64,000 nucleotides of DNA from Nitrososphaerota archaeon (GTDB lineage: Archaea; Thermoproteota; Nitrososphaeria_A; Caldarchaeales; Calditenuaceae), in the NCBI GenBank assembly GCA_009889515.1, contig WUQR01000139.1, positions 186,001 through 250,000 on the forward strand. The letters are read 5' to 3'. Positions within the stretch are counted from its first letter, which is position 1. Each line of letters begins with the position of its first letter. The notes under the pieces are model-generated. The model was not told where the DNA came from, did no database searches, and saw nothing but the letters and a program-made list of their open reading frames with translations. Below, in pieces: positions 52,438 through 64,000 of this stretch. A program made the position numbers and the translations under genes.

Positions 52438-52529
52438 GGGCCCGTGGCCTAGAAGGATAAGGCGGCGGCCTCCTAAGCCGCAGAGCGTTAAAGGCGCGGA
52501 AACCGTGGGTTCGAGTCCCACCGGGCCCG
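52438..52529 (+). tRNA. tRNA-Arg(CCT) with 18-nt intron in the variable loop
   Basis: Acceptor GGGCCCG/CGGGCCC, D-arm GCCTAGAAGGATAAGGC, anticodon stem GCGGC/GCCGC with loop CTCCTAA (anticodon CCT), T-stem GTGGG/CCCAC. Between the anticodon stem and T-arm lie 23 bases rather than five. Removing 52484-52501 (18 bases) leaves AGACC, and the flanks form a bulge-helix-bulge: center ccgc/gcgg with bulges aga and aaa. That places the intron at positions 45/46. Mature length 74. Confidence 0.88.
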
Positions 52530-52572
52530 CATTTATATAATGAGACACCAGCAAGATTGGGGTGAAAAGAGA

Positions 52573-53733
52573 CTATAGGGGGTGGTCTGGTAGGCGACCC
52601 CCCAGTAGTCCTCTTCTCCTGAAATAGTTTTCCATTCGTTGTTGTTTCTTTCGAATAGAGAATCCAACAAGCTCGTAATACTTTAGCCTATATGGAGCCC
52701 TGATATTGAGATAATATACTTCTTTCTTTCTCATGTATATTCTCTGCATATCCTTATTAAAGATGGGCGTATCTTTCTTTACACCTAAGTGCGGCCCTGT
52801 TACATCGATGCATAAACGATTCAGGAGGGTCTTGACATAGTTTAGGAGTTGTTTGTCTGAGTTGTCACAGCGAATTTCCCCCTCCTTACTTACTGATCCT
52901 TCGCTATCGAAGAAGCCTTTTAGGAAACTTCTCATGCAGTCTTCACAATGCTCCGTGAAATTCTTTATCCTGTTTATGTCGATTGGTTTTCGGAGAAGTT
53001 GGTAAAGAGTTCTCGATCTTACACAAACCTGAAACTTACCTCTAACGAGTATCGGCGTTGGCGGGCTCCTATTCAGTATTCGACCGAGGCATTCTGCGAA
53101 TCTCTCGCTAAACTCTCGATCCTTAACTTGAGATCCGATAACATATTCACCGCTTCTCCCCCTTGTTTTAACAGCTGATCCATCCCCGCACACAACACCT
53201 ATGACATAAGCTAGCTCTGGGGATGGCTTCAGGTAGTCTACTGTAGGAATTCGTATTCCGCCATATGGTGTATGGATTCCTCTACACCAATCAACAATTA
53301 CCGCGGGTGCAAGCGTGATATCATATAATTCTTTAATCCTCCGCCTAATCTTCTTGTAACCTAATCCCTGCCTCCTCAGCCTCAGGACTTCCTCGTACAG
53401 CGTTATCCTCAATTCGCGTGGAAGGTATTTTCCCCTTCTCCCCAATCTCTCTGGAAAAAACTTGCGATACCAGTATTCTACGGTCCGCCTCGATACATTT
53501 ACCCCATCCTTCCTTAACATCCGCCATATTCTCACGTATCCTAGCCCTCTCAGAGCCTCCCTCTTCAGCACATCCATGAGCTTCTTCTTTTCCTCCGGTG
53601 TCATTCTCTGCCGGACTCTTCCTAATCCTTTCCCTGTTTGGTCCTCGGGCTCGTTGAGAAGACCGGGATTTAGTCCTCCTGTTCCCTGCCCTGCTACAGG
53701 CTCCGCTACGCGTGGGCAGCTCTCTCCAGACAT
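52573..53733 (-). CDS. free-standing HTH-LAGLIDADG homing-endonuclease-like protein
   Basis: A 386-residue protein. Residues 48-160 contain two helix-turn-helix-like segments (LGYVRIWRMLRKDGVNVSRRTVEYW and LGYKKIRRRIKELYDITLAPAVIVDWC). Two LAGLIDADG motifs follow, LAYVIGVVCGDG at 174-185 and SFLKGFFDSEGS at 269-280, each with its acidic metal residue. These cut DNA at long sites and can spread genes into new loci. The gene lies 43 bases past the 3' end of tRNA-Arg, on the opposite strand, and is free-standing, not inside an intron. A close paralogue sits beside tRNA-His. Confidence 0.85.
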   Translation of the reverse strand: MSGESCPRVAEPVAGQGTGGLNPGLLNEPEDQTGKGLGRVRQRMTPEEKKKLMDVLKREALRGLGYVRIWRMLRKDGVNVSRRTVEYWYRKFFPERLGRRGKYLPRELRITLYEEVLRLRRQGLGYKKIRRRIKELYDITLAPAVIVDWCRGIHTPYGGIRIPTVDYLKPSPELAYVIGVVCGDGSAVKTRGRSGEYVIGSQVKDREFSERFAECLGRILNRSPPTPILVRGKFQVCVRSRTLYQLLRKPIDINRIKNFTEHCEDCMRSFLKGFFDSEGSVSKEGEIRCDNSDKQLLNYVKTLLNRLCIDVTGPHLGVKKDTPIFNKDMQRIYMRKKEVYYLNIRAPYRLKYYELVGFSIRKKQQRMENYFRRRGLLGGRLPDHPL

Positions 53734-54045
53734 GACTAGAATAGCAAGTATGGGGGCTTTATAACTCTTAAGAGACTTCGCTGAAAGTATATTATGGTTT
53801 AAGATTGTTAAATTTCCAATAAGTCACTCACGTCCAATCTAAAGGCCTATCAGTCAAGGAGGAGGATCAGTCAATCCAGAGGCATTCACATAGGCCACAA
53901 TAGAAGCTAAATTCACAGGATATGGATACTTTAGTGATCGCTCATTCACAAATAGTCCAAGAACAAACTATGATGTCCTTGGACTGTTAGGATTGAAAAT
54001 CCGGGATAAGGGTTATGGGTTGGTTAGTGTAGTTGTTTAAGAGAT
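53734..54045. other. 312-base gap before the hydrogenase region
   Basis: No convincing reading frame. It is AT-rich, and should hold the promoters of the LAGLIDADG gene (left) and of hypA (right). I see no inverted repeat copy of the tRNA-Arg 3' end here. Confidence 0.45.
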
Positions 54046-62297: not shown

Positions 62298-63458
62298 TTA
62301 CCTGAAATCTGCGAACTCGTAGCGGTGGCCGCGGTGGTGTAGCTGGTAACACTCCGGGCTGTGGACCCGGCGATCGTGGGTTCGAGTCCCACCCGCGGCC
62401 ATTCCGGATATTCTATATTGTGAGTGGGAGGTTGAGATGGGAGTTGAGGATAGTGTTTGGGGGGAGGTTTGGCTGGGTGGCATGTTTAGGCGTCCTAGTC
62501 TCCTCAGGTATTCTTCTAATCTTTGCTGCCTTTTCTTGATTGTGAAGCCTACTAGCTCGTAGAATTTTAGCCTGCTGCATGTCCTGATGTAGAGGCTATA
62601 GGCGTCCTTTCTTGTCCGGTAGGTCTTGCCCCTCTTCTTGCTGAAGAATGGTGTTCCTCTCTTCATCTGAAGATGTGGCCCAGTTGTTTTGATGCCTAGA
62701 TTATTTAGAAGCATCTTAACATAGTTGATGAGTCTTTCGTCAGTGTTGACGCATGTAATAGAGCCATAACTACTTACTGAGCCTTCGCTGTCGAAGAATC
62801 CTCTCAAAAAGCTCTTCATACACTCTTCACAATGCTCCACGAATGGTCTTATCACCTCTATGTCGATAGGCTTCCGAAGCAGGTCGTAGAGAGCCTTTGA
62901 TTGAACAATTACTCGGAAGAACCCGTTTCCTATTGGTGCAGGCTTCGGCGGATACCTATTAAGAACCTGTCCCAAGCATCTCGAGAATTCTTCTATGAAC
63001 TCCCTGTCTTTGACCATGCCCCCTATCCTAGCATCGCCTTTTCTTTTTCTAACAGCCCATCCGTCGCCAGAGACAACCCCTATAACGTATGCGAGTTCTG
63101 GGGTCTTCTCTAGGAAGTCTATGGACGGTATCCTACACCCATTGAATGGGTTATGTATCCCTCTCAACCACTCACTGACCTGCGACTTGCTTAGCCGGAC
63201 TCCGTACACCTCTTCTATCTCCCTTATGATCTTGTTGTACGAATGTCCCAATCCCCGCAGCCTTTTGACCTCGCCGAAAACCTTAATCCTAATAGACCTG
63301 TCGAGGCACGGCCCTCTCTTCCCCAACCTCTCAGGAAATCTCTTGTAGTAATATCTCCTGACAGTAGACCTCGATACTTCTACTCCACTACCACGCAGCA
63401 TCCTCCAGACATTATGATAGCTAAATCCGCTCCGGATCCCAATCTCCAGAGCTTCCAT
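62298..63458 (-). CDS. HTH-LAGLIDADG homing-endonuclease-like paralogue
   Basis: A 386-residue reading similar to the 52573 gene over most of its length. LAGLIDADG motifs are LAYVIGVVSGDG (122-133) and SFLRGFFDSEGS (216-227), both with Asp or Glu. The last 36 or so residues run through the tRNA-His gene in antisense, so the natural C-terminus was probably lost with its stop. Upstream of the ATG at 63458, in-frame sequence (QRLSPELKDKL) still matches the paralogue (QRMTPEEKKKL), yet no start codon is seen there. The gene may be truncated, decaying, or use a rare start. Confidence 0.7.
   Translation of the reverse strand: MEALEIGIRSGFSYHNVWRMLRGSGVEVSRSTVRRYYYKRFPERLGKRGPCLDRSIRIKVFGEVKRLRGLGHSYNKIIREIEEVYGVRLSKSQVSEWLRGIHNPFNGCRIPSIDFLEKTPELAYVIGVVSGDGWAVRKRKGDARIGGMVKDREFIEEFSRCLGQVLNRYPPKPAPIGNGFFRVIVQSKALYDLLRKPIDIEVIRPFVEHCEECMKSFLRGFFDSEGSVSSYGSITCVNTDERLINYVKMLLNNLGIKTTGPHLQMKRGTPFFSKKRGKTYRTRKDAYSLYIRTCSRLKFYELVGFTIKKRQQRLEEYLRRLGRLNMPPSQTSPQTLSSTPISTSHSQYRISGMAAGGTRTHDRRVHSPECYQLHHRGHRYEFADFR
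62327..62400 (+). tRNA. tRNA-His(GTG) with encoded G-1
   Basis: Acceptor GCCGCGG/CCGCGGC with a G at -1 opposite C73, the identity mark of tRNA-His. D-arm GTGTAGCTGGTAACAC, anticodon stem CCGGG/CCCGG with loop CTGTGGA (anticodon GTG), T-stem GTGGG/CCCAC. No intron. A TATA-like aaatatatta at 62291-62300 lies upstream, and the stop codon of the antisense LAGLIDADG frame falls inside it. Confidence 0.95.
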
Positions 63459-63860
63459 AAGCTTATCCTTCAGCTCAGGTGATAGTCGTTGATCACTTCT
63501 TCCAACCTCTCTCGACAGCCCAGCAGCCTTGCCTGGTAGGGAGTACGGAATTCCACCATCTATTATGAGCCTAGCACCATATTCCCAAGTATTTATCTGC
63601 TCTATTGTCAGCTGTTAACACCTACCACACACTAATGTAACACGCTTTATACTCTCCCACGTATAAGCTTTGAGACACCTAAACTAATGTAAGGGTCTCG
63701 AAATTATACTATGGGTGGGGGAAGGTTTAGCAGTGGTGTCTCCAGCAACCTCGTTTCCAAGAGATTCTTCGAAGCCACATTTAGCTTAGACGTGTGGGTG
63801 TTGGGGGCTCCGCGGGTATAGGGCATAGGCACATATATAGTCCGGGGGTACATGTTAGCC
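63459..63860. other. upstream region of LAGLIDADG gene and pilin-like gene promoter
   Basis: About 400 bases without a called gene. The part next to 63458 keeps an open frame that resembles the paralogue's N-terminus. The rest is AT-rich, with ataaatac near 63590 as a possible promoter and catatata at 63833-63840 as the TATA for the next gene. Confidence 0.45.
63833..63840 (+). promoter_or_regulatory. TATA box for the pilin-like gene
   Basis: catatata lies 21-28 bases before the ATG at 63861; leaderless arrangement. Confidence 0.5.
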
Positions 63861-64000
63861 ATGAGCGGCATAAGGAGGATCAAGGGTGAGATTCCTACAG
63901 TATATGCTTTGACTGTCTCAGTGGTGGCGATAGCTGCTGTCTTGGCTGCATCCCTCTACGCGATGAATATGCTAGGCAGTGCGAGTAGCGTTCCGTATAC
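63861..64000 (+). CDS. type IV pilin-like surface protein, N-terminal part
   Basis: The first 46 residues only; the gene runs off the window. A short basic start (MSGIRRIKG) is followed by EIPTVYALTVSVVAIAAVLAASLY, a long hydrophobic helix. This is the class III signal layout of archaeal pilins, with prepilin-peptidase cleavage after the Gly. It could also be a simple membrane-anchored secreted protein; the rest of the gene decides. An ATG nine bases earlier is in frame. Confidence 0.55.
   Translation, partial: MSGIRRIKGEIPTVYALTVSVVAIAAVLAASLYAMNMLGSASSVPY

Follow-up and report, generated by a model that had tools for sequence, protein, structure and literature searches.

The DNA described here, referred to as the window, is a stretch of 64,000 nucleotides and contains two copies of an endonuclease gene. 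Copy 1 (positions 52573-53733, minus strand) is an open reading frame (ORF) of 386 amino acids with the domain order HTH-HTH-LAGLIDADG, as indicated by a Pfam match and an AlphaFold model. Copy 2, counted from its first ATG, occupies positions 62298-63458 of the minus strand. The putative target gene of copy 1 is tRNA-Arg(CCT), which lies on the plus strand at 52438-52530 according to ARAGORN; Rfam (RF00005, 59.5 bits) ends it at 52529. The gap between this tRNA and copy 1 is 42 bp. The putative target gene of copy 2 is tRNA-His(GTG) at 62327-62401, plus strand, with its end at 62401 in ARAGORN and 62400 in Rfam.

The two encoded proteins are 55% identical across residues 37-377 of copy 1. The reading frame of copy 2 has no stop ahead of tRNA-His and runs antisense through the entire tRNA gene to position 62298. 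Its conserved part extends from approximately 62487 to 63515 and ends 86 bp from tRNA-His. Because the conserved part begins (at about 63515) upstream of the first ATG at 63458, the start of copy 2 is either unusual or damaged.

The tRNA-Arg(CCT) gene at 52438-52530 appears to hold a non-canonical intron of about 18 nucleotides after the anticodon arm. The orthologues in three related genomes (G003, G005, and G008) are without these nucleotides, and that of a fourth (G002) has a different extra stretch at the same place.

Both window copies match the LAGLIDADG_3 domain (PF14528) in Pfam, with values of 1.5e-13 for copy 1 and 4.3e-17 for copy 2, and their HTH matches are all sub-threshold. The AlphaFold model of copy 1, for which a 20-sequence alignment (A1) was the input, has a mean pLDDT of 81.9. 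It contains three-helix segments at residues 46-92 and 106-151, followed by a double LAGLIDADG domain. The closest solved fold in Foldseek is I-DmoI, with an E value of 1.4e-9 and a TM-score by target length of 0.75. The profile of A1 also matches the I-DmoI sequence (3.6e-12). LAGLIDADG motif 1 of copy 1 (residues 174-185, positions 53179-53214, minus strand) carries a catalytic-type Asp184 that pairs with Asp21 of I-DmoI, and motif 2 (residues 270-280, positions 52894-52926, minus strand) carries a catalytic-type Glu278 that pairs with Glu117. Both residues are invariant in the 20 aligned family members.

In the regulator WhiA, the LAGLIDADG domain comes first and the HTH is C-terminal. Identity with WhiA was rejected for the window proteins, in which the helical segments are N-terminal and the WhiA LAGLIDADG model (PF14527) scores 13.9 and 12.5 bits, below its cut-off of 23.2. 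No DDE domain was reported for the endonuclease protein, the matches of that kind being weak ones to transposase models or HTH domains.

The family is under purifying selection. The ratio dN/dS is 0.11-0.40 in the eight of 19 chosen pairs for which it could be computed; synonymous sites are saturated in four of the remaining pairs, and one or both frames are broken in the other seven. Many copies are broken, and a script test found an intact frame in 74 of 133. Together with the repeated new insertions described below, the retained active-site residues and the low dN/dS values indicate that the protein is used and the element is mobile.

The first-pass annotation of the window had described two free-standing paralogues, alike over nearly their whole length, with two HTH-like segments ahead of a double LAGLIDADG domain. 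The protein identity and the copy 1 model bear this out, and the inspected loci showed no intron. The same annotation had placed both genes just past the 3' end of an opposite-strand tRNA. This holds for copy 1 and for the conserved part of copy 2, but the ORF of copy 2 as a whole overlaps all of tRNA-His.

The boundaries of the two inserts can be read from relatives in which the same site is empty. At tRNA-Arg(CCT), local alignment with L134/L110 of G003 places insert 1 at 52530-53990 (1461 bp). The insert starts with the base that follows the tRNA and ends where homology to the empty site of G003 is regained, with a one-base ambiguity. In G003 the hypA region starts directly after the tRNA, and in the window it resumes at 53991, subject to the same ambiguity. 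The orthologous tRNA-His site is empty in a congener (G004). There, tRNA-His is directly continued by sequence matching the window from 63778 onward (window 63778-63997 against +1 to +219 of the congener tRNA-His, 84% identity over 220 bp), which places insert 2 at 62401-63777 (1377 bp). The inserts at tRNA-His and tRNA-Arg(CCT) contain one gene each and nothing else, and both start at the first base past the mature tRNA. The element is taken here to be a LAGLIDADG homing endonuclease gene with its flanks, inserted where the mature tRNA ends and facing back toward it.

Three further sites of the source genome have empty counterparts in G003. At tRNA-Ile and tRNA-Arg(TCT), homology resumes 21 and 36 bp past the tRNA, respectively, so the exact junctions are unreadable. 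At the tRNA-Pro site, the far junction of the insert bears a second tRNA 3' end. Both an occupied and an empty form of the site are known for tRNA-His, Arg-CCT, Ile, Arg-TCT, and Pro, and also for the tRNA-Met of Thermococcus.

Several related loci differ from these simple alleles. The tRNA-His locus of G002 (L096) seemingly holds an endonuclease of a different subfamily, which suggests that this site was occupied independently. The tRNA-Arg(CCT) locus of the same genome (L108) has approximately 510 extra bp between the tRNA and hypA, possibly an eroded insertion. In G001 (L115, upstream of position 1526), the 3' part of tRNA-Arg(CCT) is preceded by sequence of an unusual kind, and the 110 nucleotides shown contain no normal 5' half; this may be a long intron, a permutation, or a split gene.

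The source genome (G000), a member of the Caldarchaeales (Aigarchaeota), is 2.11 Mb in 154 contigs and has 44 tRNAs by Rfam. A search of this genome with copy 1 identified five long copies and one broken copy. All five intact copies are convergent on the 3' end of an opposite-strand tRNA, which lies 45-86 bp beyond the gene. One of these (L003, at Arg-TCT) has one stop inside the matched stretch and was counted as intact since its open frame is 375 amino acids. The occupied tRNAs are Arg-CCT, Arg-TCT, His, Ile-GAT, and Pro, or five of the 44 in the genome; the isotype of the last, Pro(GGG), is a reading from sequence. The broken copy (C68:4753-5261) has no tRNA alongside. By a hand calculation from 44 tRNAs in 2.11 Mb, the chance that a gene placed at random has its end no more than 150 bp from a tRNA 3' end, in convergent orientation, is about 0.0016. 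The five tRNA-linked copies and the empty congener sites show that the tRNA neighbors are neither random nor ancient and vertically shared.

The family is present in 26 of 61 examined genomes, including the source genome, and flanks were fetched for part of the matches from this search. A scan of 84,980 species genomes identified 107 relatives, of which 79 loci were kept. The kept loci include Aigarchaeota, soil Thaumarchaeota, Bathyarchaeota, Nitrososphaerales, Thermococcus, Archaeoglobaceae, Methanocaldococcus, and one Woesearchaeon.

Adjacency to a tRNA was scored using a strict T-arm pattern requiring five pairs, which interrupted or decayed T arms escape. When the loci fetched by a tRNA-Met query (L246-L275) are left aside, 121 distinct relatives can be sorted into 63 that face a tRNA 3' end convergently at a distance of 150 bp or less, five that are co-directional (tRNA, then gene), and 53 without a tRNA by this test. 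Density was measured in 133 copies, which are those with at least 150 bp of sequence beyond the gene among the 138 distinct copies that reach the C-terminus. Convergent T arms have a density of 3.56 per kb over the 150 bp that follow the gene end, as compared with at most 0.08 per kb farther away. For co-directional T arms (tRNA, then gene), the density over an equal distance is 0.52 per kb. On the 3' side of the gene, 71 convergent tRNAs were found within 150 bp versus two in the same direction.

Some tRNAs missed by the pattern because of T-arm introns or decay were recognized by eye (L012, L031, L053, L071, L069, L078, L079, and L084). Other copies really are away from tRNAs, for example several in G004 and four in another genome, G030 (L050, L055, L061, and L081). 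These four share a common repeated flank that is not a tRNA. Four others in G030 (L084, L078, L079, and L069) have decayed or partial tRNA copies right beside the gene, possibly remnants of earlier insertions. One locus (L033) was considered as an insertion within an ABC transporter gene, and this was rejected since the other half of that gene is absent from the far flank.

Among 38 more distant scan loci, 25 have a convergent tRNA within 150 bp. These loci were chosen to represent new genomes, although inexactly: L215 and L235 belong to HR02, and the genome of L239 is possibly one already covered. A tRNA-Met is beside or near the gene in 11 of the 12 euryarchaeal loci, and the twelfth (L223) ends at a contig edge. 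This tRNA is the site of the relatives in Thermococci, Archaeoglobi, and Methanocaldococcus. The same-direction order, with the tRNA first and then the gene, characterizes one clade and some of the Thermococcus loci.

The tRNA-Met site was compared across Thermococcus in a set of 41 genomes, 39 of which gave a tRNA-Met match and 30 of which contributed a locus that was read. Of these loci, 11 contain a convergent gene (or part of one), six contain a co-directional gene, and 13 have no gene. Occupied and empty loci have the downstream gene in common. A CCA encoded after the tRNA is present in 11 of the 13 empty loci, all six co-directional loci, and two of the 11 convergent loci. The two empty loci without CCA contain apparent gene relics by eye. 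The loss of CCA from nine of the 11 convergent loci indicates that the insert mostly starts at the mature tRNA end, as it does in the window.

Copies move between tRNAs within a lineage. This follows from three patterns. The copies in G030, mostly 78-90% identical in DNA sequence, occur at no fewer than six different tRNAs, and the similarity between them reaches as far as the base following the tRNA. A tree of 47 proteins groups three copies from a further genome (G033), each at a different tRNA, in a single fully supported clade. Among the tree rows with a scored tRNA, the genome label changes 10 times and the acceptor-strand label 18 times by plain counts. The tree was a quick build with modest support, and its 47 rows exclude those with more than two stops or fewer than 200 residues.

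A second tRNA 3' fragment at the distal end of the insert was found in four loci (L004, L009, L021, and L036) of the 95 scanned, some of which are repeated. In all four, the acceptor strand of the fragment is that of the near tRNA, the near side of L021 being itself a fragment. The T stem of the distal fragment differs from that of the near tRNA in L004, L009, and L036, the three loci in which both sides have a clear T arm. The inserts at tRNA-His and tRNA-Arg carry no such distal fragment. In L004, the whole tRNA is a Pro type and the fragment is a Val type, one base off the Val tRNAs of the same genome, with both isotypes read from sequence. The G003 orthologue indicates that the Pro T stem is native to the site. 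The distal fragment of L036 is identical in sequence to the 3' end of a G000 tRNA-Ala, an isotype again read from sequence. Since these fragments combine the same acceptor with a different T stem, some moves may use a molecule that carries a tRNA 3' end. Such a molecule, bearing a foreign tRNA 3' end, may have integrated by exchange within the acceptor strand. A repeat in L011 at +2426 was rejected as a distal fragment, as it lies 1.3 kb beyond the gene. In L036, positions 1222-1499 between the endonuclease gene and the distal tRNA-Ala fragment are non-coding and contain six copies of a 34-nucleotide repeat, five of which have GGACAGCCACTTGGTTGAC.

The explanation we consider probable is that a free-standing gene for a homing endonuclease moves from one tRNA 3' end to another, and that both window copies are mobile elements with a single gene and a length of about 1.4 kb. 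Tentatively proposed by the first-pass annotation as tRNA-directed spread of a homing-endonuclease-based element, this idea gains support from both of the comparisons that the annotation had suggested. The search for more copies in the genome placed all five intact ones at five different tRNAs, and the comparison of occupied and empty sites in congeners gave a junction at tRNA +1 for two orthologous tRNAs.

A second explanation is that the endonuclease gene is a passenger with some other role, and that a tyrosine integrase of a plasmid or virus (SSV or pNOB8 type) inserts a small satellite at tRNA 3' ends. The tRNA 3' end is a classic integrase attachment site. In the excerpt of PMC6563490 used here, 39 of 68 mapped thaumarchaeal elements lie in tRNA genes, all but one at the 3' side, and that proportion favors an integrase. 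The second tRNA 3' fragment at the far end of four copies is also what duplication of an attachment site would produce. Against this, most copies lack the duplication, and neither window copy (His or Arg) has direct repeats of the integrase type. The His and Arg inserts are one gene with no integrase, and no integrase-like ORF was noticed on reading the ORF lists of the L004, L011, and L036 flanks. The query protein (P0001) had no match in 72,556 plasmid and 50,697 phage records; in IMG/VR, two distant viral loci are 25-28% identical to the endonuclease. The endonuclease gene is also the only part seen to be common over the archaeal lineages. On balance, an integrase passenger is unlikely.

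It is less likely still that insertion is untargeted and that copies landing anywhere persist only at a safe harbor such as a tRNA 3' end. A tRNA is left unbroken by an insertion after it, and some copies, mostly in G004 and G030, are indeed away from tRNAs. However, tRNA 3' ends are far scarcer than other intergenic space, the two best-resolved junctions fall at tRNA +1, and the bias of 71 convergent to two same-direction tRNAs is strong. The CCA that is present in empty Thermococcus sites and missing from most convergent insertions argues against untargeted insertion as well. The last alternative is a vertically inherited host gene beside tRNAs, such as a WhiA-type tRNA-linked regulator or a repair protein. 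It would accommodate the HTH and LAGLIDADG domains, and WhiA does turn up among the lower-ranked hits of the fold search. It is already contradicted by the empty sites, however, and is highly improbable: presence varies at one site among congeners, many copies are broken (the frame is intact in 74 of 133), the two catalytic acids are invariant in 20 of 20 members, the Pfam WhiA LAGLIDADG model stays under its cut-off, and the HTH segments are N-terminal.

Under the homing endonuclease explanation, the enzyme would bind the conserved 3' part of the tRNA gene (the T arm and acceptor strand), perhaps aided by its HTH segments, and would cut at or beside the tRNA 3' end. Repair of the break would then introduce a copy of an element already present at another tRNA. 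The tRNA would remain whole, and the element would provide it with a new downstream trailer.

Some observations count against this explanation. By the strict test, 53 of 121 relatives (about 44%) are without a tRNA, in part because of missed tRNAs, and the broken copy at C68:4753 has none. The existence of two orientations means that a single simple cut-and-copy geometry is insufficient for everything. A tRNA that is whole after insertion should also still be cuttable, unless recognition passes the tRNA end or the tRNA is changed. Introns were considered as such a protection and rejected. By eye, judging from length, three of the five occupied and about 11 of the 39 unoccupied tRNAs of G000 seem to contain an intron, a difference that shows nothing when just five tRNAs are occupied. 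The occupied tRNA-His of G000 is intronless and the intron-bearing tRNA-His of G005 has no obvious insert, so a link with introns is not strict.

A broader proposal can be made only tentatively, and we regard it as rather doubtful: that a widespread class of archaeal single-endonuclease elements homes on tRNA 3' ends generally, hops by way of shared acceptor sequences, and drives the evolution of tRNA genes. If this is true, cut or exchanged 3' parts would give rise to chimeric 3' ends and decayed tRNA copies, and perhaps to selection for T-arm or variable-region introns that spoil the site. An enzyme would then be on offer for unexplained tRNA disruption and intron movement in archaea. Should the enzyme cut tRNA genes, it would constitute a homing system whose related targets number in the dozens in each genome, rather than a single one. 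A testable agent would then also be at hand for the fragmented, chimeric, and intron-rich tRNA genes of archaea. The landing site is one that classically belongs to integrases, and here the sole gene at it is a homing endonuclease, of a family found from Aigarchaeota to Thermococcus. Among the papers listed by a search of open PMC full text, which covers few subscription papers or preprints, none deals, by title and opening of the abstract, with homing endonuclease genes located at the 3' ends of tRNAs; the phenomenon may have been described elsewhere.

The closest known enzymes are I-DmoI and the other LAGLIDADG homing endonucleases of archaeal rRNA introns. They share with the present family the double-LAGLIDADG fold, aligned catalytic acids, and mobility at a conserved RNA gene. 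The present gene differs in having HTH segments and in being outside any intron, outside the tRNA, and at many different tRNA genes. The gene is not encoded within an intron or intein, as each tRNA is complete and the endonuclease domain lies past it on the opposite strand.

Free-standing homing endonucleases include yeast HO and the phage Seg and Mob genes. Like these, the present gene has no intron or intein and lies beside its putative target. HO, Seg, and Mob act at one site or a few neighboring genes, whereas the present family occurs at paralogous tRNA genes in several archaeal lineages. The start of the insertion at the mature end of an RNA also distinguishes it from them.

The tRNA-integrating elements of the SSV and pNOB8 type, as presented in excerpts of PMC6563490 and PMC3293823, are similar in their insertion point at the tRNA 3' end and in the occasional second tRNA 3' fragment. 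Unlike them, the present element has no visible tyrosine recombinase, consists of one gene, usually shows no attachment-site duplication, and leaves the tRNA intact. Sugahara et al. 2012 (PMC3293823, in the portion consulted) describe a multicopy Caldiarchaeum insertion sequence associated with the 5' part of tRNA-Thr. It resembles the present element in being multicopy, near tRNA genes, and from the same archaeal order, and it differs in being tied to the 5' part of tRNA-Thr. Identity of the two is not supported: a 288-amino-acid ORF near tRNA-Thr(CGU) in G014, a single contig of 1,680,938 bases, is not LAGLIDADG-like by eye. This assumes that G014 is that genome and that the ORF is region b of PMC3293823. 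Finally, the mobile tRNA introns of Thermoproteales (Fujishima 2010, as cited in an excerpt of PMC10714607) spread among different tRNA genes and are in this respect similar sequences. They are located within the tRNA, and the excerpted account names no enzyme for them, whereas the present element is a protein gene outside the tRNA.
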